Source of the DNA: Tritonibacter multivorans
GTDB taxonomy: Bacteria; Pseudomonadota; Alphaproteobacteria; Rhodobacterales; Rhodobacteraceae
Assembly: GCF_001458415.1 (NCBI RefSeq)
Contig: NZ_CYSD01000042.1
Span: 310,001 to 374,000 of the forward strand
Direction of reading: 5' to 3'
Length of the DNA: 64,000 nucleotides
A model generated the notes under the pieces. The model ran no database searches. It saw only the letters and a program-made list of their open reading frames with translations, and was not told where the DNA came from. Below are positions 6,071 through 45,168 of this stretch, piece by piece. The translations under genes and the position numbers were made by a program. Position 1 is the first letter of the stretch. Every line of letters starts with the position of its first letter.

Positions 6071-6120
6071 GACGGGCCGGATCGGATGGGCCGGTGCGGA
6101 TGGGCCGGTGCGGATGGCCC
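6071..6120. repeat. 14-bp tandem repeat between the two binding-protein genes
   Basis: The unit GATGGGCCGGTGCG is present twice exactly (6085-6098, 6099-6112), with a degenerate copy before (6071-6084) and a partial copy after. It lies in the 237-bp spacer between the duplicated genes. Confidence 0.7.
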
Positions 6121-6177
6121 CGCAGCACGGGGCCAATCCTGCGCGGATCCTGTTTCGTCGGGATCAGAGGGGGCGGA

Positions 6178-29791: not shown

Positions 29792-30110
29792 ACACATCTG
29801 AGGGGGGCGCTGCCCCCCTCGGTCTTTTTCAAAGCCCTTCACCCCCCGGAGTATTTGGGGCCAAAAGAAACATGGGGTCTCCCGCTTTTCTTTTGGCGCG
29901 AAATACTCCGGAGCACGAGGCAGAGCCTCGTTGAAAACATAGGCGTTGCCATAGCGCCGCGCGCTGCATTCTGTGAAGTTTAACGTCCGTGCGGCTATTC
30001 TCCATCTCGCAGCTGGAAAACGTGGAGGTGGGATGCGGAGCGCTCGGACGGGCCGCACCGATCCTCCTCCCGTTTCTCTTTCGGATTGTTTGAAAGAGGA
30101 GCTGCCAGAC
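29792..30110. other. intergenic region upstream of the GTA cluster
   Basis: 319 bp. The first half is filled by the composite dispersed repeat (29802-29938), whose first hairpin probably ends the mltG transcript. The second half (29940-30110) must hold the GTA promoter. No CtrA-type site was found in it, consistent with indirect CtrA control of GTAs. Confidence 0.55.
29802..29938. repeat. composite palindromic dispersed repeat before the GTA cluster
   Basis: Modules in order: GGGGGGCGCTGCCCCCC (29802-29818, with a following TCTTTTTC that makes it terminator-like), CCCCCCGGAGTATTTGGGG plus CCAAAAGAAA (29842-29870), then the inverted module with CTTTTGGCGCGAAATACTCC and the CGAGGC-AGA-GCCTCG hairpin (29887-29938). 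Related copies lie at 2654-2710 and 11404-11450. Confidence 0.8.
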
Positions 30111-30467
30111 ATGGCTTCCCCCAAAACACCCTCTGACATGCCTGCGACCTATGAAGGGCGCTTGGACCGGCTGCGATCGCTTTACGGCACGATCCAGCGC
30201 GCCCGGCGGTCGACAGAGGCCTATATCGACGAGCTTGAAGCCGAAGAGGAGGCCAATCCTGACACCACCCATCTGCGCGCCCGAATAAGCAAACTTGACG
30301 GCGTGCTGCGTGATTTTCAGAAATTGGAGAAGCTTCTTGACCCGGAAAACGCCGACGAACCGACCCGTGCCAAAGGCATCTTTGACCTCACCTCAGCGCG
30401 TGCCGAAATTGAACGCCGCCTGGCTGGCCTCGCAGAGCTGCTTGAGCCGGGAGATCCTGCTGAATGA
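30111..30467 (+). CDS. GTA small terminase subunit (g1)
   Basis: 118 aa, mostly helical with a coiled-coil centre (RLDRLRSLYGTIQRARRSTEAYIDELEAEEE ...), matching RcGTA gp1, the small terminase that helps package random host DNA. The ATG at 30111 (MASPKTPSD) has GAGGAG 9 nt upstream. Its end overlaps the start of the large terminase frame. First gene of the GTA cluster. Confidence 0.85.
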   Translation: MASPKTPSDMPATYEGRLDRLRSLYGTIQRARRSTEAYIDELEAEEEANPDTTHLRARISKLDGVLRDFQKLEKLLDPENADEPTRAKGIFDLTSARAEIERRLAGLAELLEPGDPAE

Positions 30468-31737
30468 TCTGCCCGAACACGATCTGGCGGCCTGGCCGTG
30501 GATCTTTGACCATTGGGCGCTGCCGCATCAGGCGGCCCCTCCGGGGGACTGGCGCACATGGGTGATCCTCGGCGGGCGCGGGGCAGGCAAGACCCGTGCA
30601 GGCGCGGAATGGGTGCGTGCGCAGGTCGAAGGTGCGACGCCGCGCGCCGTGGGTCGGGCGCGGCGTGTGGCCTTGTTGGGCGAAACCTATGATCAGGTGC
30701 GCGATGTGATGATCCGGGGTGACAGCGGCATTCTGGCCTGCACCCCGCCGGATCGCCGTCCAGACTGGCGCGCGGGCGAACGGCGTCTGGTCTGGCCCAA
30801 TGGCGCAGAAGCGCAGGCGTTTTCTGCCTCCGATCCCGAGGCCCTGCGCGGGCCGCAGTTCGACGCCGCCTGGGCGGATGAGCTGGCCAAATGGCGTCAG
30901 GGCCAAGAGGCTTGGGACATGCTGCAGTTTGCCCTGCGGCTGGGGCAGGAGCCGCGCGTCTGTGTCACCACCACGCCGCGCAATGTGGATGTGCTGCGCC
31001 GTCTGCTCGACAGTCCTTCGACCGTCATGACCCACGCCCCGACCGAGGCCAATCGCGCCAATCTTGCGCCATCTTATCTGGCCGAGGTCCGTGCCCGCTA
31101 TGAAGGTACGCGGCTGGAACGCCAAGAACTGGATGGGGAGCTGTTGGGCGATGCCGACGGCGCGCTCTGGACCCTTGCGCAGCTTGAGGGGCTGAAAGGC
31201 GCGCCCTTCGACTTTGACCGGATCGTTGTCGGGGTCGACCCTTCGGTGTCTGCTACGGGGGATGCCTGCGGGATCGTGGTTGTGGGCGCACAGACGCGCG
31301 GGGTCATCACCAGTTGGCGCGCCCATGTGATTGCCGATTGCACGCTGCAAAAGGCCACGCCGCTGACTTGGGCCAAGGCGGTGGTTGCCGCCCGCGACCG
31401 CTTCCAGGCCCATCTGGTTGTGGCCGAGGTCAATCAGGGTGGCGGGCTGGTGCAGGACCTGTTGCGCCAGATCGACCCGACAATTCCATATCAGGGGGTG
31501 CATGCAGGCGCAGGCAAGGCGGCACGCGCCGAACCGGTGGCGGCGCTTTATGAACAGGGGCGTGTCACCCATGCGCAGGGGCTTGGTCGGCTGGAGGCGC
31601 AGATGGTGCAGATGACCGCGCAGCGGTACTGCGGCACCGGCAGCCCCGACCGGGTGGATGCGCTGGTTTGGGCGCTGTGGGCGCTGATACTGGAGCCAAT
31701 GCAGCGCAACCGATGCCCCCGCGCACGGCAACTCTGA
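30400..31737 (+). CDS. GTA large terminase (g2)
   Basis: Packaging motor ATPase and nuclease. Walker A GGRGAGKTRAGAEW, Walker B FDAAWADE, the TTTPR coupling motif, and RNase H-like nuclease aspartates (VGVDPSVSATGDACG; VAEVNQGG; SPDRVDALVWAL). About 445 aa. The start is uncertain: no ATG lies before the conserved region, so I used the GTG at 30400, overlapping g1 by 68 bp; a TTG at 30442 is an alternative. It is followed by an intrinsic terminator rather than running directly into g3. Confidence 0.93.
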   Translation: MPKLNAAWLASQSCLSREILLNDLPEHDLAAWPWIFDHWALPHQAAPPGDWRTWVILGGRGAGKTRAGAEWVRAQVEGATPRAVGRARRVALLGETYDQVRDVMIRGDSGILACTPPDRRPDWRAGERRLVWPNGAEAQAFSASDPEALRGPQFDAAWADELAKWRQGQEAWDMLQFALRLGQEPRVCVTTTPRNVDVLRRLLDSPSTVMTHAPTEANRANLAPSYLAEVRARYEGTRLERQELDGELLGDADGALWTLAQLEGLKGAPFDFDRIVVGVDPSVSATGDACGIVVVGAQTRGVITSWRAHVIADCTLQKATPLTWAKAVVAARDRFQAHLVVAEVNQGGGLVQDLLRQIDPTIPYQGVHAGAGKAARAEPVAALYEQGRVTHAQGLGRLEAQMVQMTAQRYCGTGSPDRVDALVWALWALILEPMQRNRCPRARQL

Positions 31738-31742
31738 CCCGC

Positions 31743-31778
31743 AAATGCCCGGCCCAAGTGCCGGGCATTTTTGTTTTT
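31743..31778 (+). terminator. intrinsic terminator between GTA g2 and g3
   Basis: An 11-bp perfect stem AAATGCCCGGC/GCCGGGCATTT, 6-nt loop, then TTGTTTTTAAA. It starts 6 bases after the g2 stop and sits inside the GTA cluster. Confidence 0.85.
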
Positions 31779-31904
31779 AAACAGAAGCTTGGAGCTGGTG
31801 TTGCATCCCCGCCGCGCGCTCTGGTCGGGGGCATTTAAATCTCCGGCGCGATACTGCTTCCCAACGACGAAACATGAACCCTCAGCTTTCAGAAGGTGAC
31901 GCCC

Positions 31905-33119
31905 ATGGTCCTGAATGTCCTGCGCCGCAAACCCGTGCCCCAGCCACAGGGTGCGGAGGTCAAGGTCTCTGCCGCTGCTCAAATTGCGAGCCGCGTTCTG
32001 CCCACCGGGGGTGCGCAGGCCGTGTGGGGTGCGCGCGATGGGGCGACGCTGACCCGGTCTGGCTTTCTGGGCAACCCCGTCGGCCATCGCACCGTCAAAC
32101 TGATCGCAGAGGCCGCCGCGAGCCTGCCGCTGGTGTTGCAGGACGACGCACGCCGCTATGACAGCCATCCGCTGCTGCGGCTTCTGGCGCGTCCCAATGG
32201 CGCGCAGGGCCGGGCCGAGCTGCTGGAGGCGATCTATGCGCATCTGCTGCTGTCCGGCAACGCCTATATCGAGGCAGTCGCGGGGGACGCGGGCCTGCCG
32301 GTTGAACTGCATGTGCTGCGCCCGGACCGGATGCGGGTGGTGCCCGGTGCGGATGGCTGGCCCGTGGGCTATGACTATACTGTCGGGGCCAAATCGCACC
32401 GTTTCCCCAATGATCCCATGCGCCCGGCGGTCTGCCATCTGCGGGCCTTTCACCCGCTGGACGACCACTATGGCGCAGCGCCGCTGCAGGCGGCTGCCAC
32501 TGCGGTCGAGGTGCATAATGCCGCCGCGCGCTGGTCGAAATCCCTGCTGGACAATGCGGCGCGGCCGTCCGGTGCCTTGGTCTGGCGCGGCAATGACAAT
32601 CAGGGGCTGCTGGCGGACGATCAGTTCCGCCGCCTGAGCGAAGAGATCGAGGCCAATTTTCAAGGCGCGCGCAATGCCGGCCGTCCCATGGTTCTGGAAG
32701 GGGGCCTGGACTGGAAACCCATGGGCTTCAGCCCCTCGGATATGGAGTTTCACCGCACCAAGGAAAGCGCCGCGCGCGAGATCGCGCAGGCGTTTGGCGT
32801 GCCGCCCATGTTGCTCGGCATTCCGGGGGACGCGACCTATGCGAATTATCAGGAAGCCAACCGCGCCTTTTACCGCCTGACGGTGCTGCCCCTGGTGGCG
32901 CGGGTAACGGCGGCCCTTGCGGATTGGCTGACGCTCTATTCCGGCGAGGTGCTGGAGCTGAAACCCGATCTTGATCAGGTGCAGGCGCTGGCCAGTGAAC
33001 GCGATGCGCAATGGCGCCGTGTGGCCGAGGCAGAGTTTCTGACCGTCGCCGAAAAACGCCGCCTTCTGGGCCTGCCTGCCTTGTCCGAGGACAGCACAGA
33101 GGGGGGCGCGGATGTCTGA
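31905..33119 (+). CDS. GTA portal protein (g3), HK97 family
   Basis: Dodecameric DNA portal of the capsid vertex. 404 aa with the HK97 portal signatures (HLLLSGNAYIEAV; FHPLDDHYGAAPLQ; AQAFGVPPMLLGIPGDATYANYQEANRAFY). I used the ATG at 31905 with AAGG 8 nt upstream; a GTG three codons earlier is possible. The 3' end overlaps g3.5 by 8 bp. Confidence 0.95.
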   Translation: MVLNVLRRKPVPQPQGAEVKVSAAAQIASRVLPTGGAQAVWGARDGATLTRSGFLGNPVGHRTVKLIAEAAASLPLVLQDDARRYDSHPLLRLLARPNGAQGRAELLEAIYAHLLLSGNAYIEAVAGDAGLPVELHVLRPDRMRVVPGADGWPVGYDYTVGAKSHRFPNDPMRPAVCHLRAFHPLDDHYGAAPLQAAATAVEVHNAAARWSKSLLDNAARPSGALVWRGNDNQGLLADDQFRRLSEEIEANFQGARNAGRPMVLEGGLDWKPMGFSPSDMEFHRTKESAAREIAQAFGVPPMLLGIPGDATYANYQEANRAFYRLTVLPLVARVTAALADWLTLYSGEVLELKPDLDQVQALASERDAQWRRVAEAEFLTVAEKRRLLGLPALSEDSTEGGADV

Positions 33120-33345
33120 GCTGCCGCCTTTTGCCCCGCCACCGTTTGACTGCGCGCCGGGGCTGCGACTGGCCGCCCATGAACGTGTGGCCGAGGCCCG
33201 CCGCGAGGCCATGCTGCGCCGTCTGGCGCGTCTGGAGGCCGCGCAGGAGCTGCTCGAACGGCGTCTCTGGCTGACCGTTTACGGCGTGGCAGCTGTGGTT
33301 CTGAGCCAAGCTGTGCAGGGCTTTCTTTCCACGCAAACACAATGA
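33112..33345 (+). CDS. GTA small head-region protein (g3.5)
   Basis: 77 aa. A Pro-rich N-terminus, a charged helix (ERVAEARREAMLRRLARLEAAQELLERR), then one hydrophobic helix (LWLTVYGVAAVVLSQAVQGF). Position and size match RcGTA orfg3.5, a small gene always between portal and protease. Possibly membrane-associated during assembly. Overlaps g3 and, by ATGA, g4. Confidence 0.8.
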   Translation: MSELPPFAPPPFDCAPGLRLAAHERVAEARREAMLRRLARLEAAQELLERRLWLTVYGVAAVVLSQAVQGFLSTQTQ

Positions 33346-33920
33346 AACCAATGGGATGCAATCATATGTTAATCAAAGGTGAACCCGTGTTTGAACAGAA
33401 GTTCGCACGCTTCGGCAATGATCTTGCGCTGGAAGATGACGCCCGGATCGAAGGCTATGCCAGCCTGTTCAATGTGGCCGATGAAGGCGGCGATATTGTC
33501 CAGCCCGGCGCCTACAGCGCCTCTCTGGCGCGCCATGCGGCGCGGGGAACAGCGGTAAAAATGCTGTGGCAGCACCAGCCCGACCAGCCGATTGGCGTCT
33601 GGGACCGGGTCCTTGAGGACGAGCGCGGCCTGAAGGTCACTGGCCGGCTTCTGACCGAAACCAGACAGGGCGCAGAGGCCGCCGCACTGGTCAAGGCCGG
33701 CGCAATCGAGGGGCTGTCGATCGGCTACCGCACGGTCAAAGCCAGCCGTGACAGCCAGGGCCGCCGTTTGCTGACCGAGGTCAGCCTCTTCGAGGTCTCG
33801 CTGGTGACATTTCCCATGCTGCCCACCGCCCGCGTGGCCGCCAAGGCGGAGGCAACGGCCGACCCCGCAGCCCCGCTGCGCGCGCTGGTGGCAGAACTGC
33901 GCGCCGCCTGCCGCAGCTAA
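33342..33920 (+). CDS. GTA prohead protease (g4), HK97 family
   Basis: 192 aa. Caudovirales serine protease fold: EGYASLFNVADEGGDIVQPGAY, histidine in MLWQHQ, and serine in GLSIGYR. Cleaves the scaffold domain of the capsid protein during maturation. Starts at an ATGA overlap with g3.5. Confidence 0.93.
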   Translation: MKPMGCNHMLIKGEPVFEQKFARFGNDLALEDDARIEGYASLFNVADEGGDIVQPGAYSASLARHAARGTAVKMLWQHQPDQPIGVWDRVLEDERGLKVTGRLLTETRQGAEAAALVKAGAIEGLSIGYRTVKASRDSQGRRLLTEVSLFEVSLVTFPMLPTARVAAKAEATADPAAPLRALVAELRAACRS

Positions 33921-33944
33921 CCCGACCCCTCCAGGAGACCCCAA

Positions 33945-35120
33945 ATGACCGACCAACCAAACACCGAGGTTCCCCGCGAAGATCTGGCCCATGAGGTGAA
34001 ACAAGCTGTTTCCGAATTCGTAAGCCACTTCAAAGGGTTCAAGGACGACGTCACCCTGAAACTGCAACAGAACGAAGAGCGTATGACCATGCTGGACCGT
34101 AAGACACACATCACCGCCCGCCCGCATCTTGCGGCATCTGAAACTGAAACCGCGCCGCATCAGAAGGCCTTTGATGCCTATCTGCGCTCTGGCGATGAAA
34201 CCGCGCTGCGCGGCCTGGATCTGGAAGCCAAGGCGCTGAGCACGGCTGTGAACACGGATGGCGGCTTTCTGGTCGATCCGGTCACCTCGGACACGGTGAA
34301 ATCGGTGCTGACCTCCACCGCGTCTCTGCGCGCTGTGGCCTCTGTGGTGTCGGTCGAGGCGACGTCCTATGACGTGCTGATCGACCACGGCGAATTGGGC
34401 GCAGGCTGGGCCACTGAGACCGGCAGCCTGACCGAAACCGCAACCCCGCAGATCGACCGGATTACCATCGCGCTGCACGAATTGTCGGCGCTGCCCAAGG
34501 CCTCGCAACGTCTGCTGGATGACAGTGCTTTTGATCTGGAAAGCTGGCTGGCAGGCCGGATTGCGGAAAAATTCGCCCGCTCCGAGGCGGCGGCCTTTAT
34601 CAATGGCGACGGCATCGACAAGCCCATGGGCATGATGACCCATCCGGCGGTGGACAATGACAGCTGGACCTGGGGCAACCTTGGCTATGTGGCGACCGGC
34701 GTGGACGGCGGGATTTCCGGCGGTGATGCGATTGTTGATCTGGTCTATGCGCTGGGGGCGGAATACCGCGCCAATGCAACCTTTGTGATGAATTCCAAAA
34801 CCGCAGGCGTGGTGCGCAAGCTCAAGGACGCCGATGGCCGCTTCCTGTGGTCCGATGGTCTGGCCGCGGGCGAACCTGCGCGCCTGATGGGCTATCCGGT
34901 GCTGGTGGCCGAAGACATGCCCGACGTGGCCTCGGACAGCTGTTCCATTGCCTTTGGCGATTTTGCCGCCGGCTACACCATTGCAGAACGCCCGGACCTG
35001 CGCGTGCTGCGCGATCCGTTCTCTGCGAAACCGCATGTGCTGTTTTATGCCTCCAAACGGGTCGGCGGAGATGTCAGCGACTTTGCGGCGATCAAACTGC
35101 TGAAATTCGCCACCAGCTAA
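33945..35120 (+). CDS. GTA major capsid protein (g5), HK97 family
   Basis: 391 aa. An N-terminal helical scaffold segment (about 1-100, KQAVSEFVSHFKGFKDDVTLKLQQNEERM) is removed by the protease. The rest has the HK97 fold: STAVNTDGGFLVDP, LPKASQRLLDDSAFDLESWL, FVMNSKTAGVVRKLKD, and AGYTIAERPDLRVLRDPF. GGAG in the spacer gives a good ribosome binding site. A 155-bp spacer follows, one of the two long gaps in the cluster. Confidence 0.96.
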   Translation: MTDQPNTEVPREDLAHEVKQAVSEFVSHFKGFKDDVTLKLQQNEERMTMLDRKTHITARPHLAASETETAPHQKAFDAYLRSGDETALRGLDLEAKALSTAVNTDGGFLVDPVTSDTVKSVLTSTASLRAVASVVSVEATSYDVLIDHGELGAGWATETGSLTETATPQIDRITIALHELSALPKASQRLLDDSAFDLESWLAGRIAEKFARSEAAAFINGDGIDKPMGMMTHPAVDNDSWTWGNLGYVATGVDGGISGGDAIVDLVYALGAEYRANATFVMNSKTAGVVRKLKDADGRFLWSDGLAAGEPARLMGYPVLVAEDMPDVASDSCSIAFGDFAAGYTIAERPDLRVLRDPFSAKPHVLFYASKRVGGDVSDFAAIKLLKFATS

Positions 35121-35275
35121 GCGCTGTGTGACGGATGACGTGCCCGGCAGCCCGGGCGCGTCGGCGGGCACGCGCCAAACCAGCCTGTCGTCCAGCTGCT
35201 CCCTCCGTCCGAGCGGCAGGCCAGGCGCGTGCTCCCACCTGAGGGGGGAGAGGTTTTTCAAAGCGGAGAGTTGGC
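35121..35275 (+). other. spacer between GTA g5 and g6 with hairpin
   Basis: Contains an imperfect long hairpin with CGTGCCCG (35139-35146) pairing CGGGCACG (35165-35172), and near its end CTGAGGGGGG and TTTTTCAAAGC, segments also found in the repeat at 29800-29835. Possibly mRNA stabilisation or processing after the abundant capsid message. Confidence 0.45.
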
Positions 35276-35890
35276 ATGACCCTGACCGAGACGACCCAAT
35301 TGCCCGATGCCGCCCTGCCGCTGGCGCCGTTTCGCGCGCATCTGCGCATGGGCACTGGCTTTGGCGATGACACCCTGCAGGACGAGGTTCTTCTGGCCTT
35401 TCTGCGCGCCAGTCTGGCCGCCATTGAGGCCCGCACCGGCAAAGTTCTGCTGGCCCGCGCGTTTCAGTGGCAGACCGAAAGCTGGGGGACCACCGCCCAG
35501 GCGGACGGCGCTTCCGCGCCGCTGCCGGTGGCGCCGGTCTCTGCTGTGTCGGAGCTGGCGATTGTGCCACTGACCGGCGCCGAGACCGTGGTGGATGTGG
35601 CGGCCTATCGGTTGGTGGCCGATGCGCAGGCACCGAAACTGGCCGCTGTGGGGGCGGCGTTGCCGGTGATCCCAACCGGCGGCGCGGCGCGGGTCACATT
35701 GACCGCTGGCATGGCTCCGGACTGGGAGGGGCTGCCTGCGGATCTGCGGCAGGCGGTGCTGATGTTGGCCGCGCATTACTATGAATACCGCGAGGATCGC
35801 GGGCTGGACGCGGGCTGCATGCCCTTTGGCGTATCCGCACTGCTGAGCCGCTATCGCCGCCTGCGGCTGAGCTTTGGGGGCGCGGCATGA
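35276..35890 (+). CDS. GTA head-tail connector / adaptor (g6)
   Basis: 204 aa. An N-terminal helical domain of the gp6-like connector type (LGDDTLQDEVLLAFLRASLAAIEARTGKVLLAR pattern around residues 25-60) and the C-terminal LRQAVLMLAAHYYEYRED helix of phage head-tail connectors. GGAG lies 8 nt before the ATG. Overlaps g7 by ATGA. Matches RcGTA gp6. Confidence 0.9.
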   Translation: MTLTETTQLPDAALPLAPFRAHLRMGTGFGDDTLQDEVLLAFLRASLAAIEARTGKVLLARAFQWQTESWGTTAQADGASAPLPVAPVSAVSELAIVPLTGAETVVDVAAYRLVADAQAPKLAAVGAALPVIPTGGAARVTLTAGMAPDWEGLPADLRQAVLMLAAHYYEYREDRGLDAGCMPFGVSALLSRYRRLRLSFGGAA

Positions 35891-36237
35891 GACGGTCCCG
35901 AGTGACACCGCGGTTGACCCGGCGTCTGCGGCTGGAAGAGGTGAACCGCGTGGCGGATGGCGCCGGAGGCTTTACCGAGGTCTGGGTGGAGAAAGGCCGG
36001 CTCTGGGCCGAGGTGCGCAGCCTGACGGGGCGCGAAACCACGCAAGGCGGCGTGCCGCTGTCGGTGCAGCGCTATCGGATCACCCTGCGCGCGGCCCCGG
36101 ACGGCAGCCCCGAGCGGCCCCGCGCCGATCAGCGGTTTCGCGACGGCAGCCGGATCTTCCGCATCACCGCCGTGGGCGATGCCGACCCCGAGGGGCGGTT
36201 TCTGACGGCCCAGGCCACAGAGGAGACCGCCACATGA
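35887..36237 (+). CDS. GTA head-tail stopper (g7)
   Basis: 116 aa, the SPP1 gp16 / HK97 gp10-like stopper: basic N-terminus RRLRLEEVNRVADGAGGF, then GRLWAEVRSLTGRE and a beta-rich core ending in DGSRIFRITAVGDADPEGRFL. Overlaps both neighbours by 4 bp. Confidence 0.9.
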   Translation: MRRSRVTPRLTRRLRLEEVNRVADGAGGFTEVWVEKGRLWAEVRSLTGRETTQGGVPLSVQRYRITLRAAPDGSPERPRADQRFRDGSRIFRITAVGDADPEGRFLTAQATEETAT

Positions 36238-36638
36238 CCTATGCATTGGCGTCCAGTTTTCAGACTGCAGTCTATCAATGTCTTCTCGGGGATGCGGAGG
36301 TTCAGGCGGCGGTCGGCACGGCGATCTATGACGCGCTGCCCACGGGCACGCTGCCGGACCTTTATGTGACGCTCGGCGCCGAAGAGGCGCTGGATCGGTC
36401 GGACAGCAGCGGGGCGGGCGCGCTGCATATGTTCACCGTGACGCTTCGGGCGGAAAGCGCGGGCTTTGCCCGTGCAAAGACAGCGGCGGCAGCCATTTGC
36501 GATGCGCTTCTGGCGGCGGATCTGACGCTGGAGCGGGGCCGGGTCGTGGGCCTGTGGTTTGACCGGGCCCGCGCCGAACGGATGAGCGATGGCACCCGGC
36601 GGATTGCCCTGCGGTTCACCGCGCGGCTCGAGGCGTAA
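36234..36638 (+). CDS. GTA tail terminator (g8, DUF3168)
   Basis: 134 aa. DUF3168 pattern: FQTAVYQCLLGDAEVQAAVG, AIYDALPTGTLPDLYVTLG, and the final IALRFTARLEA strand. Caps the tail tube and joins it to the stopper. The ATG at 36234 forms an ATGA overlap with g7; the longer frame starting upstream is antisense-like shadow. Confidence 0.9.
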   Translation: MTYALASSFQTAVYQCLLGDAEVQAAVGTAIYDALPTGTLPDLYVTLGAEEALDRSDSSGAGALHMFTVTLRAESAGFARAKTAAAAICDALLAADLTLERGRVVGLWFDRARAERMSDGTRRIALRFTARLEA

Positions 36639-36680
36639 GCAACAGCGTAAACCTAATCTTTCAAACGAATGGAGGCCAAG

Positions 36681-37094
36681 ATGGCAGCCCAGAACGGCAA
36701 GGATCTGTTGATCAAAGTGGATATGACCGGTGGCGGCAGTTTCACCACCATTGCGGGGCTGCGCGCAACGCGGATCGCGTTCAACGCCGAAAGCGTCGAT
36801 GTCACCAGCCTTGATAGCCAGGGGGGCTGGCGTGAACTGTTGGGCGGTGCGGGCATGCGGTCGGCCAATATCTCGGGCTCGGGCGTGTTTCGCGACGCCG
36901 ACACCGATGAGCGCGCGCGTCAGTTGTTCTTTGATGGGCTGACGCCCGCCTTTCAGGTGGTGATCCCCGATTTTGGCACCGTGGAGGGGCCGTTTCAGGT
37001 CACCGCACTTGAGTATTCCGGCAGCTACAATGGCGAGGCGACCTATGAGCTGTCGCTGGCCAGCGCCGGTGCGCTGACCTTTACGGCGGCGTGA
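36681..37094 (+). CDS. GTA major tail tube protein (g9)
   Basis: 137 aa. Phage major tail protein 2 family: NGKDLLIKVDMTGGGSFTTIAGLRATRIAFNAE and the beta-sandwich core to ATYELSLASAGALTF. I used the second ATG (36681) because GGAGG just upstream fits it, whereas the first ATG (36669) overlaps that site. Confidence 0.92.
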   Translation: MAAQNGKDLLIKVDMTGGGSFTTIAGLRATRIAFNAESVDVTSLDSQGGWRELLGGAGMRSANISGSGVFRDADTDERARQLFFDGLTPAFQVVIPDFGTVEGPFQVTALEYSGSYNGEATYELSLASAGALTFTAA

Positions 37095-37098
37095 TCCG

Positions 37099-37437
37099 AT
37101 GGCGAACCCACATCGCGGCGAGGTGGCGCTGGTTCTGGATGGGGAAACCCATGTGCTGCGCCTGACATTGGGCGCGCTGGCCGAGCTGGAGGCCACGTTG
37201 GCCGAGGACAGCCTTGTGGCGCTGGTGGAACGGTTTGAAACCGGCGCGTTCTCCGCCCGCGATCTCTTGGCGCTGCTGGCCGCAGCGCTGAAAGGGGGCG
37301 GGTCCAGCGTCACGCCTGCGGCCCTGGCGGCGGCAGAAATCGCCGGCGGCGCGCAAGAGGCCGCCCGTGTGGCCGCGCGGCTGTTGGCGCTGAGTTTTGC
37401 AGGCGTCCCGGATCCCGCGCCTGTTTCACCGTCATGA
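37099..37437 (+). CDS. GTA tail assembly protein (g10)
   Basis: 112 aa. Matches the GTA gp10 family (HRGEVALVLDGETHVLRLTLGALAELEATL start; helical C-terminus). Probably a tail-tube assembly chaperone acting before tape-measure folding. Overlaps the next gene by ATGA. Confidence 0.88.
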   Translation: MANPHRGEVALVLDGETHVLRLTLGALAELEATLAEDSLVALVERFETGAFSARDLLALLAAALKGGGSSVTPAALAAAEIAGGAQEAARVAARLLALSFAGVPDPAPVSPS

Positions 37438-37640
37438 CCGGGTTCAACTGGCCCGTGCTGATGCGGGCGGGGATCGCCGGGCTGCGGCTGAGGCCGGATC
37501 AGTTCTGGGCGCTGACGCCTCATGAACTGCGGCTGATGCTGGGCCTGACTGAGACAGCCCAACAGGCAATGGATCGCAGCCGGCTGACCCAGCTGATGCG
37601 GGATTTCCCGGATGTGAGCGACCTCAAGGAAGGAAGTTAA
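37434..37640 (+). CDS. GTA tail assembly chaperone-like protein (g10.1)
   Basis: 68 aa. The phage TAC type with FNWPVLMRAGIAGLRLRPDQFWALTPHELRLMLG. In many phages a protein of this position is made with the previous gene by frameshifting; here an ATGA overlap does the coupling. GGAAGG near its end provides the ribosome binding site of the tape measure gene. Confidence 0.85.
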   Translation: MTGFNWPVLMRAGIAGLRLRPDQFWALTPHELRLMLGLTETAQQAMDRSRLTQLMRDFPDVSDLKEGS

Positions 37641-37643
37641 CCC

Positions 37644-38300
37644 ATGGAAGAAGCAGATTTTTCGGCCCTTGATGCGGAAAGCGGATCGCTCGGCGATGCG
37701 CTGGGGACTGCCGCCGGAATGGCTGCGAGTTTCCGCGCAGAGCTGAGCCATCTGTCGCGCGGACTGGCCAGCACAAGCCAGGGCGCGGGGCGTCTGGAAC
37801 GGGGGCTGAGCCGGGGGCTGAGCCGGGCTTTCACCGATCTGGTGGTCGACGGCGATGGTCTGTCGGATGTGCTCGAAGGGCTGGGCCGGTCGATGATCCG
37901 AAGCACCTATAACGCCGCCATTCGCCCGGTGGCGGATCAGGCCGGCAGCGCCCTTGCGAGCGGGCTGTCGGGGCTGGTGGGGGCGGTCCTGCCTTTTGCC
38001 GATGGGGCGGCGTTTTCGGCCGGGCGCGTTGTGCCCTTTGCCCGTGGTGGGGTGGTGAATGGCCCGACCCATTTCCCGATGCGCGGCGGTGTTGGGCTGA
38101 TGGGCGAAGCCGGACCAGAGGCGATCATGCCGCTGGTGCGCGGCGCGGATGGTGCGCTTGGCGTGCGGTCGTCGGGCGGCGCGGCGCCAACCGTAGTGAT
38201 GAATATCACGACCCCGGATGTGGCAGGATTTGCCCGCGCGCGTGGACAGATCGCCAACCAGATGAGCCGCGCCCTGTCGCGTGGCAACCGCAACCGCTGA
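37644..38300 (+). CDS. GTA tail tape measure protein (g11)
   Basis: 218 aa, short, as expected for the stubby RcGTA-like tail. A helical N-terminal region (LGDALGTAAGMAASFRAELS; LEGLGRSMIRSTYNAAIRPVADQAG) and a C-terminal lambda-like segment (GGVVNGPTHFPMRGGVGLMGEAGPEAIMPL). Sets tail length and sits inside the tube. Confidence 0.9.
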   Translation: MEEADFSALDAESGSLGDALGTAAGMAASFRAELSHLSRGLASTSQGAGRLERGLSRGLSRAFTDLVVDGDGLSDVLEGLGRSMIRSTYNAAIRPVADQAGSALASGLSGLVGAVLPFADGAAFSAGRVVPFARGGVVNGPTHFPMRGGVGLMGEAGPEAIMPLVRGADGALGVRSSGGAAPTVVMNITTPDVAGFARARGQIANQMSRALSRGNRNR

Positions 38301-38337
38301 TCCCGGCGGTGGCGCCTGAATGAAAGAGGGCAAGCCT

Positions 38338-38970
38338 ATGAATTTTCACGAAATCCGATTCCCTGAAACCCTGTCATTTGGATCTGTCGGCGGCCCCGAA
38401 CGGCGCACCGATGTGGTCACGCTGGCCAATGGCCACGAGGAGCGCAATGCGCCCTGGGCCCATGCGCGCCGCCGCTATGATGCGGGGCTGGGGCTGCGGT
38501 CGCTGGACGATATTGCGGCCCTCATCGCGTTTTTTGAGGCCCGTCAGGGCCGGCTGTTTGGGTTTCGCTGGAAGGATTGGTCGGATTTTCGCAGCTGTCT
38601 GCCCTCGGGTCAGATCAGCTTTGAGGATCAGGTCATTGGTCTGGGCGATGGCGCGGCAACCGGATTTCAGCTGACCAAGACCTACCGGTCGGGGGCGCAG
38701 TCCTATGGCCGTCCGATTTCCAAACCTGTGGCAAGCACGGTTCAGGTCGGGATCGAACAGGAGATCCTGCAAGAGGGCGTGGATTATACGCTGGATGCCG
38801 CGACCGGCGTGGTGGAGCTGTCTTACGCGCCGGAAATCGGTCAGCGCGTGGTGGCGGGGTTTGAATTTGACGTGCCGGTGCGGTTTGACACCGACCGGAT
38901 CCAGACCTCGGTGGCGTCTTTTCAGGCCGGTGAAGCGCCGAATGTGCCGGTGGTTGAGGTGCGGGTCTGA
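38338..38970 (+). CDS. GTA distal tail protein (g12, DUF2460)
   Basis: 210 aa, TIGR02217/DUF2460 type: NFHEIRFPETLSFGSVGGPERRTDVV and RLFGFRWKDWSDFRS. Forms the distal tail ring joined to the hub. I used the ATG at 38338 rather than one six codons upstream, because family members start MNFHEI and AGGGCAAG is near. Overlaps g13 by one base. Confidence 0.92.
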   Translation: MNFHEIRFPETLSFGSVGGPERRTDVVTLANGHEERNAPWAHARRRYDAGLGLRSLDDIAALIAFFEARQGRLFGFRWKDWSDFRSCLPSGQISFEDQVIGLGDGAATGFQLTKTYRSGAQSYGRPISKPVASTVQVGIEQEILQEGVDYTLDAATGVVELSYAPEIGQRVVAGFEFDVPVRFDTDRIQTSVASFQAGEAPNVPVVEVRV

Positions 38971-39851
38971 TGGCAGAGCTTGACACAGCGCTGCAGGCGC
39001 ATCTGGACAGTGGGGCCACAACGCTGGCGCGGGCCTGGGCGGTGACGCGGCGCGATGGGGTGACCTATGGGTTTACCGATCATGATTGCGACCTCAGCTT
39101 TGACGGCGTGACCTTTCGGGCAGGCACCGGCCTGACCGCGCGGGTGCTGGCGCAAAGCACAGGGCTGTCGGTCGACAACACCGAAGCGCTGGGTGCGCTG
39201 ACGTCCTCTGCGGTGACAGAGGCCGATATTGACGCGGGCCGCTTTGATGGCGCCGAGGTGCTGGCCTGGCTGGTGAACTGGCAGGATGTCCGCCAGCGGG
39301 TGGTTCTGTTTCGGGGCAGTTTTGGCGAAATTCGCCGCAGCAATGGGGCCTTTGAGGCCGAACTGCGCGGGCTGACCGAGGCGCTGAACCGGCCGCTGGG
39401 GCGGATTTATCAGAAGGGCTGCACCGCCGTTCTGGGCGATGGAGCCTGCCGGTTTGATCTGAATACAACCGGCTATGCCGTTGAAACCCCATTTGAAATC
39501 ATTGATGGCGACCGGCTGGAATTTGCCGCGCTAGCGGGGTTTGCCGAAGGCTGGTTCGCCCATGGCCGCCTTGAGGTGCTAAGCGGCGCGGGCGCGGGGC
39601 TTTGGGCGGCGGTCAAAGGCGACCGGGGCAGCAGCCCCCGCGTGCTGGACCTGTGGGCGCCGCTGCCGGCGTCTGTGCTGCCGGGGGATCTGCTGCGCCT
39701 GACGGCGGGCTGTGACAAACGGTTGGAAAGCTGCCGGTTGAAGTTCGACAATATTTTGAACTTTCAGGGTTTTCCGGACATTCCGGGCGAAGACTGGATG
39801 GTGGCGGTGCCCAAGTCCTCGGGGCGCAATGACGGCGGGAGCCTCAGATGA
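38970..39851 (+). CDS. GTA baseplate hub protein (g13, DUF2163)
   Basis: 293 aa, TIGR02218/DUF2163 type: WAVTRRDGVTYGFTDHDCDL, YQKGCTAVLGDGACRFDL and a C-terminal CDKRLESCRLKFDNILNFQGFP. The paired cysteines in this family bind an iron-sulfur cluster in RcGTA structural work; here the C-terminal Cys pair and GACRF cysteine are kept. Overlaps g14 by ATGA. Confidence 0.92.
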   Translation: MAELDTALQAHLDSGATTLARAWAVTRRDGVTYGFTDHDCDLSFDGVTFRAGTGLTARVLAQSTGLSVDNTEALGALTSSAVTEADIDAGRFDGAEVLAWLVNWQDVRQRVVLFRGSFGEIRRSNGAFEAELRGLTEALNRPLGRIYQKGCTAVLGDGACRFDLNTTGYAVETPFEIIDGDRLEFAALAGFAEGWFAHGRLEVLSGAGAGLWAAVKGDRGSSPRVLDLWAPLPASVLPGDLLRLTAGCDKRLESCRLKFDNILNFQGFPDIPGEDWMVAVPKSSGRNDGGSLR

Positions 39852-40270
39852 ACGCGGTGGTGGAGGAGGCACGGCTGTGGCTGGGCACGCCCTATCGCCA
39901 TCAGGGCGCGGTGCGCGGGGCGGGCTGTGACTGTTTGGGCCTGATCCGCGGCATTTGGCGCGCGCGCTATGGGGCAGAGCCGGAAGCCGTGCCCCCCTAC
40001 AGCCGTGACTGGGCCGAACGGGGCGGCGAAGAACACCTGTGGCGCGCGGCGCTGCGCCATATGGCGCCGGGCACGGGCGCGGCCGGCGATGTTTTGCTGT
40101 TTCGGATGCGCAGGGGCGCGGTGGCAAAACACCTTGGTATCCAGTCCGACGACGGGCGGTTTATCCACGCAATGAGCGGTCAGGGCGTGGTGGAAAGCGC
40201 GCTGACCCCGCTGTGGCGGGCCCGGATTGTGGCGCGCTTTTCGTTTCCGTTGAATGGCTTAGGGAGTTAA
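39848..40270 (+). CDS. GTA NlpC/P60 cell-wall peptidase (g14)
   Basis: 140 aa, TIGR02219 type. Catalytic cysteine in GAGCDCLGLIRG and histidine in DDGRFIHAMSGQGV. Cuts peptide bonds of recipient peptidoglycan during DNA entry. GGAG in the short spacer precedes g15. Confidence 0.93.
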   Translation: MNAVVEEARLWLGTPYRHQGAVRGAGCDCLGLIRGIWRARYGAEPEAVPPYSRDWAERGGEEHLWRAALRHMAPGTGAAGDVLLFRMRRGAVAKHLGIQSDDGRFIHAMSGQGVVESALTPLWRARIVARFSFPLNGLGS

Positions 40271-40274
40271 CTTC

Positions 40275-43200
40275 ATGGCAACCATTGTGCTTGCAGCAGC
40301 GGGGTCTGCAATTGGCGGAGCGATCGGGGGAACCGTGGCGGGCCTGTCTGCGGCGGTGATTGGCCGCGCGGTGGGCGCGACGCTGGGCCGGGTGATCGAT
40401 GCGCGCCTCATGGGGGGATCGGACGCGGTTGAAACCGGCCGCGTGGACCGGTTCCGCCTAACCCAGGGCAGCGAAGGCGAACCGGTGGCGCGGGTCTTTG
40501 GCCGCATGCGCATTGGCGGGCAGGTGATCTGGGCCAGCGATTTTCAGGAAACCCGCTCCACCACCCGGCAAGGCGGCAAAGGCAGCGCGCCGGGGCAGGA
40601 TGTGACCTCTTACAGTTACACGGTGTCGCTGGCGGTGGCCTTATGCGAAGGGGAGATCACCCGTGTCGCCCGTGTCTGGGCGGATGGTGAGGAACTGGAC
40701 CTGAGCAGTATTGCCATGACCACCTACCGTGGCAGCGCCGATCAGCTGCCCGATCCGCTGATCGAAGCCATTGAGGGCGCGGGTCAGGTGCCCGCCTATC
40801 GCGGCACCGCCTATGTGGTGTTTGAAGATCTGCCGCTGGGTCCGTTTGGCAATCGGGTGCCGCAGCTGTCCTTCGAGGTGCTGCGCGCAGAGGACACCGA
40901 CAGCGGAACCCATGATGCGGATCTGGCGCAGATCGTCGAAGGCGTGGCGCTGATGCCGGGCACCGGGGAATATGCGCTTGCGGCCTCGCCTGTTTACATG
41001 AACCGGGGGCCGGGGGATGCACAGGCGGTGAACCTGTCGTCGGCGTCTGGTGGCAGCGATCTGCAGGCCTCGCTCGCGGCGCTGGAGGAAGAGCTGCCCA
41101 AGGCGCGCGCGGTGTCGCTGGTGGTCAGCTGGTTTGGCGATGATCTGCGCTGCGGCGACTGTCGCCTGCGGCCAAAGGTGGAACAGAAGCTGGCCGATGG
41201 ATCGATGCCCTGGGAGGTGTCGGGCCTGACGCGGGCGGCGGCGCTTAAGGTGGCTGTGACTTCGGATGGGGACGAAGACGCCCCGGTCTATGGCGGCACC
41301 CCTGCGGATGCGGCGGTGGTCGAGGCGATCCGCGACATCCGCGACCGGGGCCAGCGGGTGATGTTCTACCCCTTTATTCTGATGGAGCAGCTGGCGGGCA
41401 ATACGCTGCCCAACCCCTGGACGGGCGCGGAGGGCCAGCCGGTGCTGCCCTGGCGCGGGCGGATCACCACGTCCCTCGCGCCGGGGGTGGCGGGGTCGCC
41501 TGATGGCACCGCGCTGGCTGATGCAGAGGTCGCGGCGTTTCTGGGCACGGTTCAGGCCAGTGATTTCACCGTTTCGGATGGCACGGTGTCCTATACGGGC
41601 CCGGAGGAATGGAGCTTTTCGCGGTTCATTCTGCACTATGCGGCGCTCTGTGCGGCGGCGGGGGGCGTTGATGCGTTCTGCGTCGGCTCTGAACTGCGCG
41701 GGCTGACCCAGATCCGGGGCGCGGCTGGCTTTCCCATGGTGGCGGGCCTGCGGGCGCTCGCCGGTGAAGTGCGCGCGCTTTTAGGGCCAGATTGCGATCT
41801 GGGCTATGCGGCGGACTGGTCGGAATACTGGGGCTACCAAAGCCCCGAGGGCGACCGGTACTTCCACCTTGATCCCCTGTGGGCGGATGCGGAGATCGAT
41901 TTCATTGGCATCGACAACTACATGCCGCTGAGCGACTGGCGCGAGGGCGAGGATCATCTGGACGCCGCTGCGGCGGATGCGATTTACGAGCTGGCGTATC
42001 TGCAATCCGGCATCGAAGGCGGCGAGGGCTTTGACTGGTTCTACCCCAGCCCAGAGGCCCGCGACGCGCAACGCCGCGAACCCATCACCGACGCCGCGCA
42101 CGGGGAGCCGTGGATCTGGCGGTACAAAGACCTGCGCAGTTGGTGGGGATTGGAACATCACGAACGCATTGGCGGCATCCGGCAGGAGATGCCCACCGCA
42201 TGGCAACCCGAAAGCAAGCCGATCTGGTTCACGGAACTGGGGTGTGCTGCGATTGACAAGGGCACCAACCAGCCAAATGTGTTTCTGGACCCAAAAAGCT
42301 CAGAGAGCTTTTTGCCATATTATTCAAACGGTTTGCGCGACGACCTGTTGCAGCAGCAATACTTGCGCGCGCAGCTGACCTATTGGTCGGACGACGCGCG
42401 CAATCCGGTGTCAGCCGTCTATGACGCGCCAATGCTGGATCTGTCGAACGCCTATGTCTGGGCCTGGGACGCGCGCCCCTATCCGGCTTTTCCGACGCGC
42501 GGCGATCTGTGGAGTGATGGCCCGAATTACCTGCGCGGCCATTGGCTGAACGGGCGCGTCGGGCAGCGCACGCTGGCTTCGGTCGTGGCGGAAATCTGCG
42601 CCGATGCGGGGCTGCGCGACATTGATGTCAGCGATCTGTGGGGCGTGGTGCGGGGCTATGGGCTGCGCGATGTGGACAGCGCGCGCGCCGCGCTGCAGCC
42701 GCTGATGCTGCGCCACGGGTTTGACACCATCGAACGCACGGGCCAGCTGGTGTTTCGCCCACACAAGGGCCTGGGCGCGGTGGATCTGGTCGAGGACCAA
42801 ATGGCCGAGCACGAAGACCTTGAGGGCCGAATTGAACGGCTGCGCGACTCCGAGGCCGAGCTGTCGGGGCGGGTGCGCGTCAGTTTTGTTGAAGCAGGCG
42901 GTGATTTCGCAGTGCAAAGCGAAGAAGCCGTGCTGCCGGATGAAGCCACCCATGCGATCAGCCACTCGGATCTGCCCATGGCGCTGACCCGCGGCGAGGG
43001 CCGCCAAGTGGTGCATCGCTGGCTGGCAGAGGCTCGCGTCGGCCGGGACCGGATGCGCTTTGCCCTACCACCGTCGAAGCTGGGCCTTGGGGCCGGGGAT
43101 ATTGTGGCGGTAGATGGCGCGTCCTATAGGATCGATCGCGTAGACCTGGGCGCGGGCCAGCTGATTGAGGCTCAGCGGATCGAGGCCGGCGTTTATGACC

Positions 43201-44183
43201 CGGCGACCATGCCCGAAGACATGGCCGAGACACAGGCTTTTGCGGCGCCTTTGCCGGTTCTGCCGCTGTTTTTGGACCTGCCGCTGATCACCGGGGATGA
43301 GGTCGACCATGCCCCGCATCTGGCGGTGACGGCGGCCAGCTGGCCGGGCACGGTGGCGGTCTATGGCGCCGATCTGGGCGCGGAATTTGCGCTGGAAGAG
43401 ATCATTGCGACGCGGGCAACACTGGGCCAGACGCTGGGCGATCTGCCCTCTGCGCCTGCGGGGCGCTGGGATCTGGGTGCGGATCTGGAGGTCCAGCTGA
43501 TTGCCGGCGCGCTGGAGACGCTGGAGCCGGGCGCGGTTCTGGCGGGCGGCAATCGTCTGGCCATTGGCGATGGCAGCCCGGAAAACTGGGAGATTCTGCA
43601 GTTCCAGGAGGCAGAGCTGATCGGCCCCAATCGTTACCTGCTGCGCAACCGGCTGCGGGGGCAATATGGCACCGACGGGCTGATGCCCGAGGTCTGGCCT
43701 GCGGGGTCTTACGTGGTGCTGCTGGATGATCGGGTTGGCCAGATTGATCTGGCCGCCAGCCAGCGCCGTGTGGCGCGCAATTGGCGGATTGGCCCGGCGC
43801 GGCGGAGCTTTGAGGATCCGTCGTATGTGGCGATCGAAGCCGCGTTCGAGGGCGCGGGCCTGCGCCCCTATGCGCCTGCGCATCTGGCGGTTGATGGGGC
43901 GCTGGGGGGCGCGATGCAGTTCGACTGGATCCGCCGCACCCGCATTGACGGCGACGACTGGACCGCGCCCGAGGTGCCCTTGGGCGAGGAAAGCGAAAGC
44001 TATCTGCTGCGGGTGATCTCGGGCAGCACGGTGCTGCGCGAAGAAATTCTGACCACGGCGGCGTGGACCTATGACCCTGCCGCACAGAGCGCGGATGGGG
44101 TGGTGCCGGGCGACCGGGTGGAGGTGGCGCAGCTGTCGCGACGCTTTGGCGCGGGGCTTTTTGCTGCGGTGGCGCTGGTCTGA
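40275..44183 (+). CDS. GTA host-contact / baseplate megatron protein (g15)
   Basis: 1302 aa, the largest GTA protein. An N-terminal glycine-rich hydrophobic segment (residues 1-45), a hub-type region (VFGRMRIGGQVIWASDFQETRSTT; PQLSFEVLRAE), the GTA TIM-barrel domain (about 440-720, with FCVGSELRGLTQIRG and PIWFTELGCAAIDKGTNQPN), then the phage-tail_3 region (about 790-1000) and beta-rich tip domains. Contacts and penetrates the recipient cell. Overlaps the next gene by one base. Confidence 0.95.
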   Translation: MATIVLAAAGSAIGGAIGGTVAGLSAAVIGRAVGATLGRVIDARLMGGSDAVETGRVDRFRLTQGSEGEPVARVFGRMRIGGQVIWASDFQETRSTTRQGGKGSAPGQDVTSYSYTVSLAVALCEGEITRVARVWADGEELDLSSIAMTTYRGSADQLPDPLIEAIEGAGQVPAYRGTAYVVFEDLPLGPFGNRVPQLSFEVLRAEDTDSGTHDADLAQIVEGVALMPGTGEYALAASPVYMNRGPGDAQAVNLSSASGGSDLQASLAALEEELPKARAVSLVVSWFGDDLRCGDCRLRPKVEQKLADGSMPWEVSGLTRAAALKVAVTSDGDEDAPVYGGTPADAAVVEAIRDIRDRGQRVMFYPFILMEQLAGNTLPNPWTGAEGQPVLPWRGRITTSLAPGVAGSPDGTALADAEVAAFLGTVQASDFTVSDGTVSYTGPEEWSFSRFILHYAALCAAAGGVDAFCVGSELRGLTQIRGAAGFPMVAGLRALAGEVRALLGPDCDLGYAADWSEYWGYQSPEGDRYFHLDPLWADAEIDFIGIDNYMPLSDWREGEDHLDAAAADAIYELAYLQSGIEGGEGFDWFYPSPEARDAQRREPITDAAHGEPWIWRYKDLRSWWGLEHHERIGGIRQEMPTAWQPESKPIWFTELGCAAIDKGTNQPNVFLDPKSSESFLPYYSNGLRDDLLQQQYLRAQLTYWSDDARNPVSAVYDAPMLDLSNAYVWAWDARPYPAFPTRGDLWSDGPNYLRGHWLNGRVGQRTLASVVAEICADAGLRDIDVSDLWGVVRGYGLRDVDSARAALQPLMLRHGFDTIERTGQLVFRPHKGLGAVDLVEDQMAEHEDLEGRIERLRDSEAELSGRVRVSFVEAGGDFAVQSEEAVLPDEATHAISHSDLPMALTRGEGRQVVHRWLAEARVGRDRMRFALPPSKLGLGAGDIVAVDGASYRIDRVDLGAGQLIEAQRIEAGVYDPATMPEDMAETQAFAAPLPVLPLFLDLPLITGDEVDHAPHLAVTAASWPGTVAVYGADLGAEFALEEIIATRATLGQTLGDLPSAPAGRWDLGADLEVQLIAGALETLEPGAVLAGGNRLAIGDGSPENWEILQFQEAELIGPNRYLLRNRLRGQYGTDGLMPEVWPAGSYVVLLDDRVGQIDLAASQRRVARNWRIGPARRSFEDPSYVAIEAAFEGAGLRPYAPAHLAVDGALGGAMQFDWIRRTRIDGDDWTAPEVPLGEESESYLLRVISGSTVLREEILTTAAWTYDPAAQSADGVVPGDRVEVAQLSRRFGAGLFAAVALV

Positions 44184-44497
44184 TGCGCAGGCCGGTGCTG
44201 CCAAATGACATCATCACCTGCGCCCGCGCGCTGCTGGCCTGTCGGGCCGAAAAACGGGGGGCGCGGGCCAGAACCATTGCCCAAGGCGCGCGGCGGGCGG
44301 GCCGGTATGCGCAAGTGACCGGTCGTCTGCATCCGCGCTGGGGCGACGGATCGCTGGATGCCGCGGCGCGTCGGTTTGCGCTGGCTCCGGAGCCGTTCTG
44401 GGATGATCCAGAGTACATCGCCTGTCTTCAAACGGCCTTGGCGGTCGTTCAGCAGCAGCTGCCCAAGCGCATCATAGAAAAAGCCCCGGAAGCCTGA
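44183..44497 (+). CDS. small protein following GTA g15 (DUF7742-like)
   Basis: 104 aa, basic. PNDIITCARALLACRAEKRGARARTIAQGARRAGRYAQ and a C-terminal helix (WDDPEYIACLQTALAVVQQQLP). It starts on the last base of the g15 stop, so it is translated with the GTA cluster, and relatives follow g15 in other Rhodobacterales. Function unknown; the family assignment is from memory. Its stop codon lies inside the terminator hairpin. Confidence 0.8.
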   Translation: MRRPVLPNDIITCARALLACRAEKRGARARTIAQGARRAGRYAQVTGRLHPRWGDGSLDAAARRFALAPEPFWDDPEYIACLQTALAVVQQQLPKRIIEKAPEA

Positions 44498-44513
44498 GGC
44501 ATCCGGGGCTTCT
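44481..44513 (+). terminator. intrinsic terminator ending the GTA cluster
   Basis: A 10-bp stem AAGCCCCGGA/TCCGGGGCTT overlapping the last codons and stop of the preceding gene, followed by CTGTAATCC. It can also serve cspA from the other side, where an A-rich stretch becomes TTTTTC. Confidence 0.8.
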
Positions 44514-44537
44514 GTAATCCTGACGGATCGGGGTCGA

Positions 44538-44744
44538 TTATTCGACCACCAGATCCACTGCGGATTCGCGACCATCGCGGCCTTCACGCAGTTCGAAACT
44601 GACGGCTTGGCCATCGGCCAGACCGGTCAGGCCGGAACGCTCAACTGCAGAGATGTGCACGAATACATCGTTGGGGCGGCCTTCAACTTCAATGAAACCA
44701 AAGCCTTTTGTGGTGTTGAACCATTTCACGGTGCCTTTGGGCAT
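44538..44744 (-). CDS. cspA: cold-shock protein
   Basis: 68 aa, single cold-shock domain with RNP1 KGFGFIEV and RNP2 VFVHISAVE. Binds single-stranded RNA/DNA and acts as RNA chaperone. A long spacer lies upstream, consistent with the long leaders typical of cold-shock genes. No name-specific paralogue can be assigned; cspA is used in the generic sense. Confidence 0.95.
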
Positions 44745-45168
44745 GGTGGAAACTCCTGTCTTTCCGTAGTCCGTTGTGCCTGCCGCGGGACGCGGCGGAG
44801 CGCTATGTTCGCCGCCCGCGGTCGGGCCGGCCTGCAGCGTCGCGTCGAAAGCTGGTCTTAAGGAACAGGGTTTCGATGGTCAGATTGCAAGAGAATTGGT
44901 GGCACAGGTCTGGATCAAAACCAACAAAAATCGGAACTTTCTTTTGGGCAGGCGTTCTTAGCCCACGTTGATGTAACGTTCTGCCGCAAAATCGGCGCTT
45001 GTAGCGTCCGCAGACCTGACGTAAAGGGCAGGGCTTGCAGCGATCGAAAACTGCAATACATGCCATCACAGGATTGCGTTTGGCGAATGTGCACTTAGAT
45101 GGGTAAGATGGGACTTACCGAGCGCAGCGACCCATAAATGTGGCGCGACGAGAGAAAGGGATAGCCCG
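44745..45168. other. divergent intergenic region between cspA and cysE
   Basis: 424 bp without a credible gene. The cspA-proximal half probably is a long structured leader (GC-rich inverted segments near 44778-44835). No riboswitch was recognised. Confidence 0.45.

Follow-up and report, generated by a model that had tools for sequence, protein, structure and literature searches.

What the run of head and tail genes at positions 30111-44497 encodes is the question raised by a stretch of contig NZ_CYSD01000042.1 from Tritonibacter multivorans, a 64,000-nucleotide window of a 4.17 Mb draft genome to whose positions all coordinates below refer. Such genes could belong to a working gene transfer agent (GTA) of the type described in Rhodobacter capsulatus (RcGTA), to a GTA that has fallen silent or to a virus. 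We find that the interval holds a complete RcGTA-type gene transfer agent cluster, which, judged from its sequence, is very probably a working and vertically kept GTA, a reading to which we assign a probability of about 0.87.

A cluster has been classed as RcGTA-type if at least six RcGTA homologues, including g2 and g5, are found in one neighbourhood (PMC9662315), and the window contains 17 head and tail genes together with g16. The 17 genes, g1, g2, g3, g3.5, g4 to g10, g10.1 and g11 to g15, follow the RcGTA order on the plus strand from 30111 to 44183 and are all open (Table 1), in agreement with an initial annotation of this DNA, which had described g1 to g15 with g3.5 and g10.1 as present, ordered and full-length. 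The same annotation had assigned the entire interval to g1 to g15, whereas its end is formed by an eighteenth gene, g16, and it had correctly given the order of genes that it called mostly overlapping, a description that applies to about half of them, with overlaps at 9 of the 17 junctions among the 18 genes when g2 is taken to start at 30442 or earlier. The start of g2 is ambiguous, with TTG codons at 30295 and 30442 as candidates. Gaps of 158 and 155 nucleotides separate g2 from g3 and g5 from g6, respectively. Pfam families match 14 of the 17 head and tail genes and include those for terminase, portal, S78 protease, HK97-type capsid, connector, head completion, tail completion gp17, tail tube, GTA-gp10, TAC, DUF2460, hub, NlpC/P60 and GTA_TIM proteins, to which NCBIfam adds assignments of g3.5 (NF048001), g11 (NF058675, RcGTA_tape) and g15 (NF048004, GTA_megatron, 1860 bits). 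Solved RcGTA proteins are matched by the products of g5 (6tb9, 598 bits) and g15 (6tba, 1613 bits). The product of g1 is without match in Pfam, NCBIfam and PHROGs, and the gene was placed by its position and by its relatives in the genus. The GC content of the cluster is 65-67%, compared to 56-65%, mostly 57-63%, in the remaining 2-kb blocks of the window.

Table 1. Positions of the cluster genes, predicted RNA hairpins, candidate regulatory sequences and adjoining host genes in the window.
Feature	Positions	Strand	Evidence or remark
g1, small terminase (by position and relatives)	30111..30467	+	44-49% identity in four congeners
g2, large terminase, start uncertain, frame open from 30295	30442..31737	+	PF03237, PF17289
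g3, portal	31896..33119	+	PF04860
g3.5, GTA head formation protein	33112..33345	+	NF048001
g4, prohead protease	33342..33920	+	PF04586
g5, major capsid protein	33945..35120	+	PF05065; 6tb9
g6, head-tail connector	35276..35890	+	PF05135, TIGR02215
g7, head completion	35887..36237	+	PF05521
g8, tail completion	36237..36638	+	PF11367
g9, major tail protein	36669..37094	+	PF06199, TIGR02126
g10	37099..37437	+	PF11836
g10.1	37434..37640	+	PF09550
g11, short tape measure	37644..38300	+	NF058675
g12, distal tail	38320..38970	+	PF09343
g13, hub	38970..39851	+	PF09931, PF09356
g14, NlpC/P60 peptidase	39848..40270	+	PF00877, TIGR02219
g15, megatron	40275..44183	+	NF048004; 6tba
g16 (DUF7742), taken as rcc01699 homologue	44183..44497	+	PF24891; PMC9552610
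Intrinsic-terminator-like hairpin, 11-pair stem and T-run	31743..31770	+	5 nucleotides after g2 stop
TGTTGC box, then less conserved GC-rich stretch, between hairpin and g3	31799..31826	+	TGTTGC in 14/14 genus genomes
GCARCTGGAAAAYGTG block, about 100 nucleotides before g1	30009..30024	+	common to three of four aligned congeners
mltG (yceG), host gene upstream	28637..29791	+	TIGR00247
Terminator-like hairpin after mltG	29798..29822	+	fold z -4.11
Strong hairpin spanning g16 stop	44480..44515	.	z -5.50 and -5.95
Cold-shock (CspA-like) gene between g16 and cysE	44538..44744	-	PF00313
cysE, serine acetyltransferase, host gene downstream	45169..45978	+	TIGR01172

The likeness to RcGTA (Rhodogtaviriformidae) comprises the order of g1 to g16, with mltG upstream, as it is directly before g1 of R. 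capsulatus (PMC9552610), and cysE downstream, and it extends to an unlinked gafA, a lysozyme-holin pair and a TspA-like protein beside lysS at other loci. As proposed in the initial annotation, which would have taken their absence together with a lack of particles as a refutation, the genome was searched for the regulator gafA and for lysis genes, and both are present. The gene gafA is intact and encodes a protein of 361 residues with a helix-turn-helix and a DUF6456 domain at a locus separate from the cluster. A GH108 endolysin with a peptidoglycan-binding domain overlaps a holin of PF11351 (GTA_holin_3TM). The pair follows a ccmE-like gene on the contig of the cluster, about 64 kb further downstream, and the earlier statement that no lysis gene is present thus holds for the cluster and fails for the genome. 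Further components are less firmly assigned. A DUF2793 protein matches chain S of 8gtc (E 7.6e-12), an entry that also contains a megatron and labels this chain 'Ribonuclease III'; on our interpretation of chain S, the protein is a candidate for the baseplate tail fibre. A 761-residue pectate-lyase-like/beta-helix protein adjoins class I lysS, the place reported for tspA (PMC13420450). A match to TspA by name was not obtained for this protein, which by its place and fold family is a candidate TspA, and the TspA-like protein beside lysS is stop-free in 17 of 18 genus genomes, the exception being a genome that is 67% complete.

If expression, packaging, release and transfer proceed as in R. capsulatus, GafA would activate a promoter before g1 and the cluster would give rise to small tailed particles, which the g1/g2 terminase would fill with random host DNA. 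The tail fibre and TspA would be supplied from the other loci, and the GH108 endolysin and the GTA-type holin would release the particles. Spontaneous particles considered as potential GTAs have been described in 'Ruegeria mobilis' 45A6 (PMC3419701), a species since moved to Tritonibacter (PMC13420450).

With a megatron match in 383 of the 390 genomes of the order (353 above the curated cut-off), the cluster is ordinary in kind, a complete GTA being an expected feature of the Rhodobacterales. Its genes were followed in 80 named relatives, kept out of 440 and selected by g15, which is therefore present by construction. Here, g3 to g14 were each found in 71-78 and g2 in 69 relatives, with the misses falling partly at the ends of the fetched stretches, within which cysE was detected in 76 and g16 in 67 cases; g1 and mltG lie mostly beyond these stretches and were left uncounted. 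Every cluster gene is found in four congeners of the window genome, which shares its genus with Tritonibacter scottomollicae DSM 25328 and T. aquimaris SM1969, at a coverage of 79-100% except for one g9 alignment at 50%. Comparison with these congeners shows that the cluster genes are under purifying selection, with ratios of nonsynonymous to synonymous substitution rates (dN/dS) of about 0.07-0.64 and below 1 in every computable pair, values that are indicative only since dS is near saturation; one g16 pair was saturated, and a fifth genome (L125) is interrupted by a contig end.

The cluster contains a potential clue to its control in the gap between g2 and g3, where a hairpin resembling an intrinsic terminator is predicted (RNA fold z -3.37, with 1 of 200 shuffles equally good). 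As a scan across the cluster finds 18 terminator-like sites compared to 12.6 in shuffles, a single site proves little and a comparative test is stronger. Under a strict rule (at least seven pairs, four of them G-C, and five T in eight, with expectations from dinucleotide shuffles), the hairpin is found in 13 of 14 g2-g3 gaps of the genus, where 0.19 would be expected and the minus strand gives 3. The 14 gaps are those of the genomes in which, out of 18 searched, g3 has a full and GTA-like match, and in the fourteenth (L376) the stem has two G-U pairs and the T-run is absent. The stem varies on both arms between genus genomes, as in AAATGCCC/GGGCATTT, AAACGCCC/GGGCGTTT and AAACACCC/GGGTGTTT, changes that appear compensatory when read by eye; the automatic hairpin alignment was out of register between subgroups, and pair counts were not taken from it. 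Among 85 sources, consisting of the 80 named relatives, the four congeners and the window, the hairpin is present in 21 of 60 measurable g2-g3 gaps (expected 0.7), compared to 1 of 79 for the g5-g6 gap (expected 0.5), which is about as long. The other 25 sources have gaps above 600 nucleotides (13) or no usable g2 or g3 match (12). In a wider set of 75 genera, each represented by a single genome hand-picked from megatron match positions, 10 of 67 measurable gaps contain the hairpin (expected 0.73, minus strand 2). Some membership is shared between these sets, as L290 and L052, whose contigs have the same length, suggest. The hairpin is thus near-universal in the genus, common in its neighbours and by the strict rule missing from 57 of the 67 wider genera.

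This apparent stop signal inside the cluster suggests a possible way in which the particle genes stay switched off. In the GTA of Caulobacter crescentus (CcGTA), the gene gtaT for the large terminase is directly followed by a terminator, which GafZ bypasses, and GafA resembles the protein GafY in its N-terminal and GafZ in its C-terminal part (PMC11150451). Both elements have counterparts in the window genome: a terminator predicted from sequence at the equivalent place after g2, and a regulator, GafA, whose C-terminal DUF6456 corresponds to GafZ according to the homology described in the same source. The two systems differ in that terGTA of Caulobacter consists of three 150-bp GC-rich repeats and the window has one short hairpin, and in that GafY and GafZ are separate proteins and GafA is a single one. 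On the basis of this analogy we tentatively propose, at somewhat below even odds, that the GTA of the genus has a stop signal after its terminase genes and that GafA might act as a processive anti-terminator, which would let RNA polymerase pass. A previously unrecognised anti-termination activity of R. capsulatus GafA has been the subject of speculation (PMC11150451). A limited literature search yielded no description of a terminator for any Rhodobacterales GTA, which is not proof of absence. The hairpin after g2 sets the window apart from RcGTA as described in PMC6363796 and PMC6854486, two accounts in which the word 'terminator' does not occur. A point against anti-termination is that GafA is reported to activate via the omega subunit, whereas no enrichment of omega was seen with Caulobacter GafZ (PMC9638019, PMC11150451), and the mechanisms may therefore differ.

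The latter difference would equally suit a mode of control in which no anti-termination is needed and the hairpin divides g1-g2 from a second unit, g3-g16, with its own promoter in the 158-nucleotide gap, an arrangement that we likewise place at somewhat below even odds. It would fit the TGTTGC box that follows the hairpin throughout the genus (Table 1), possibly a promoter or regulator site; in the wider set, TGTTGC occurs in 11 of the 67 g2-g3 gaps, where mononucleotide shuffles predict 2.0. The many wider genera without a strict-rule hairpin likewise indicate that such a hairpin is not a general need, and in 6 of 75 genera g2 and g3 are more than 700 nucleotides apart, with other open frames in between, several of them on the opposite strand. 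Against an internal promoter stand the GafA-bound promoter and start site mapped before g1 in R. capsulatus (PMC6363796) and the failure to find a sigma-70-like promoter in 29700-45200, a test that is weak for this group. The long gaps measure 734-1440 nucleotides (L310, L299, L307, L342, L343 and L351), and the frames within them were judged by eye to be short-chain dehydrogenase-like in L310 (minus strand) and L343 (plus strand) and acetyltransferase-like in L299 (minus strand).

Upstream of g1, the GCARCTGGAAAAYGTG block is a candidate regulatory element on account of its sharing among congeners. We rejected it as a genome-wide GafA operator, with 13 sites at up to two mismatches compared to 18 for the reversed control, and it is not present at the gafA, lysis and DUF2793 loci. 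A 14-base version is found in 60 of 150 genomes, well above the reversed control; at the GTA of ten other genomes compared (G002, G004, G011, G027, G103, G124, G151, G174, G265 and G327) it has no site.

Several observations weigh against a vertically kept and working GTA, which is known here from its genes. Besides the near-saturated dS, two of the 17 genus genomes that are at least 90% complete lack a g3 match (G501 and G315) and a third (G494) has only a phage-like one of 26%. These three genomes are 94-100% complete, with the cluster of G315 cut by a contig end, so that loss or assembly gaps do occur in the genus. Moreover, vertical inheritance was judged from the shared host flank only, that is from cysE in 76 of the 80 relatives. 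It is nonetheless improbable that the GTA is silent or decaying, with its genes open and its expression lost. Such a state would be in line with the three congeners and with one named relative (Rhodobacteraceae Alg231_04, L070), which shows no match for g3-g8 and has partial g2 and g9, but 18 of 18 open genes, dN/dS below 1 and intact gafA and lysis genes speak against it. The cluster of L070, in which g15 has fabF and mltG nearby, is one with a large deletion.

It is very improbable that the cluster is a prophage or virus, as it is filed in IMG/VR under an entry identical to 30111-44497 (IMGVR_UViG_2615840706_000001, 14387 bp), because its direct upstream neighbour is mltG and its downstream neighbours are cspA and cysE, the latter of which also comes after the cluster in 76 of 80 relatives, the lysis and regulator genes are at other loci, Pfam detects no integrase or phage replication family among the 19 flanking open reading frames to which the search was confined, no exact 15-mer is common to 29701-30150 and 44401-45300, and the single tRNA of the window is at 4965. 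The view of the initial annotation that the absence of integrase and replication genes sets the cluster apart from a prophage is borne out by these findings. Thirteen of the 19 frames (18836-59571) have a family match, 12 being cellular and 1 sub-threshold, and 6 have none; the cellular families are short-chain dehydrogenase, YceI (twice), transporter, HisA-like, FabF, cold-shock, chemotaxis receptor, DivIC, phosphoglycerate kinase, bactofilin and M23 peptidase. The tRNA was also all that an Rfam scan at the gathering threshold found.

IMG/VR thus lists GTA clusters as viruses, and this stretch exactly so. Relatives of g15 are encoded on 280 of its stretches, some of which may be real phages, and for the best 80 of these, the entry measures 12-16 kb in 70 cases, which is roughly the length of the cluster, and is shorter in 7 and longer in 3. 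Counts of marine alphaproteobacterial viruses drawn from IMG/VR may be inflated by such entries. Megatron relatives with 39-44% identity (20 listed of 148 records) are also found in the phages RcMeacham, RDJL phi 2 and R4C, but phages with RcGTA-like baseplates have whole phage genomes and, among 50,697 phage records, no match to g16 at E values up to 1. A record titled Nocardioides marinus (L052, JAHVJD010000001.1) contains a Rhodobacterales-type GTA cluster with cysE and is probably mislabelled.

The gene g16, whose start overlaps the final base of g15, is taken as homologue of R. capsulatus rcc01699 based on its position and protein start (from a primer in PMC9552610). The latter gene follows g15, is co-transcribed with the cluster and its knock-out was without phenotype in the assays reported (PMC9552610). 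DUF7742 is present in 214 of the 390 genomes of the order, and in all 30 best-scoring of the 214 loci g15 is located upstream, within 10 nucleotides in 28 and about 700 nucleotides away in 2. In one relative (L032), a DUF2793 protein of 236 residues (5426-6136) sits between g15 and g16 and overlaps both, and five others (L022, L027 and L036-L038) have a g15-g16 gap of 699-703 nucleotides, as in L032. A g16 consensus query found only a 33% partial match in the phage records (E 0.5), plasmids gave no match at E 0.01 and the sole match in IMG/VR is the entry identical to the window, in a search that reaches close relatives only. A confident AlphaFold model of g16 (predicted local distance difference test score 92.6) found nothing at E 0.001 in PDB or BFVD with Foldseek. 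Its weak likeness to the SleB fold (Z 5.8, root-mean-square deviation 2.5-2.7 over 73-76 residues, next row 3.0) has already been published (PMC9552610). An assignment as SleB-type hydrolase was not supported by profile comparison with 25 SleB-like sequences, drawn from 30 loci of which 5 were removed by a motif filter, which gave a probability of 0.4%.

Downstream of g16, the window differs from R. capsulatus, where g16 overlaps cysE1 by 59 bp (PMC9552610), in the hairpin and the opposite-strand cspA-like gene that precede cysE. Because of this intervening minus-strand gene, cysE and the cluster probably do not share a transcript. The T-run of the hairpin is on the minus strand, which makes it terminator-like for cspA. 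A minus-strand cold-shock gene occupies the same place in 6 of the 80 named relatives.

That GafA might work as an anti-terminator is a question already raised in print (PMC11150451), and the hairpin after g2 offers a precise place to test it. If the proposal were true, stray or basal transcription would yield terminase without capsid, and particles and host death would be restricted to cells in which GafA is on. Since the Caulobacter terminator looks different but occupies the same place, the switch would then have one of two histories, an ancestral origin followed by changes of the stop signal or repeated origins at one and the same point of the cluster.

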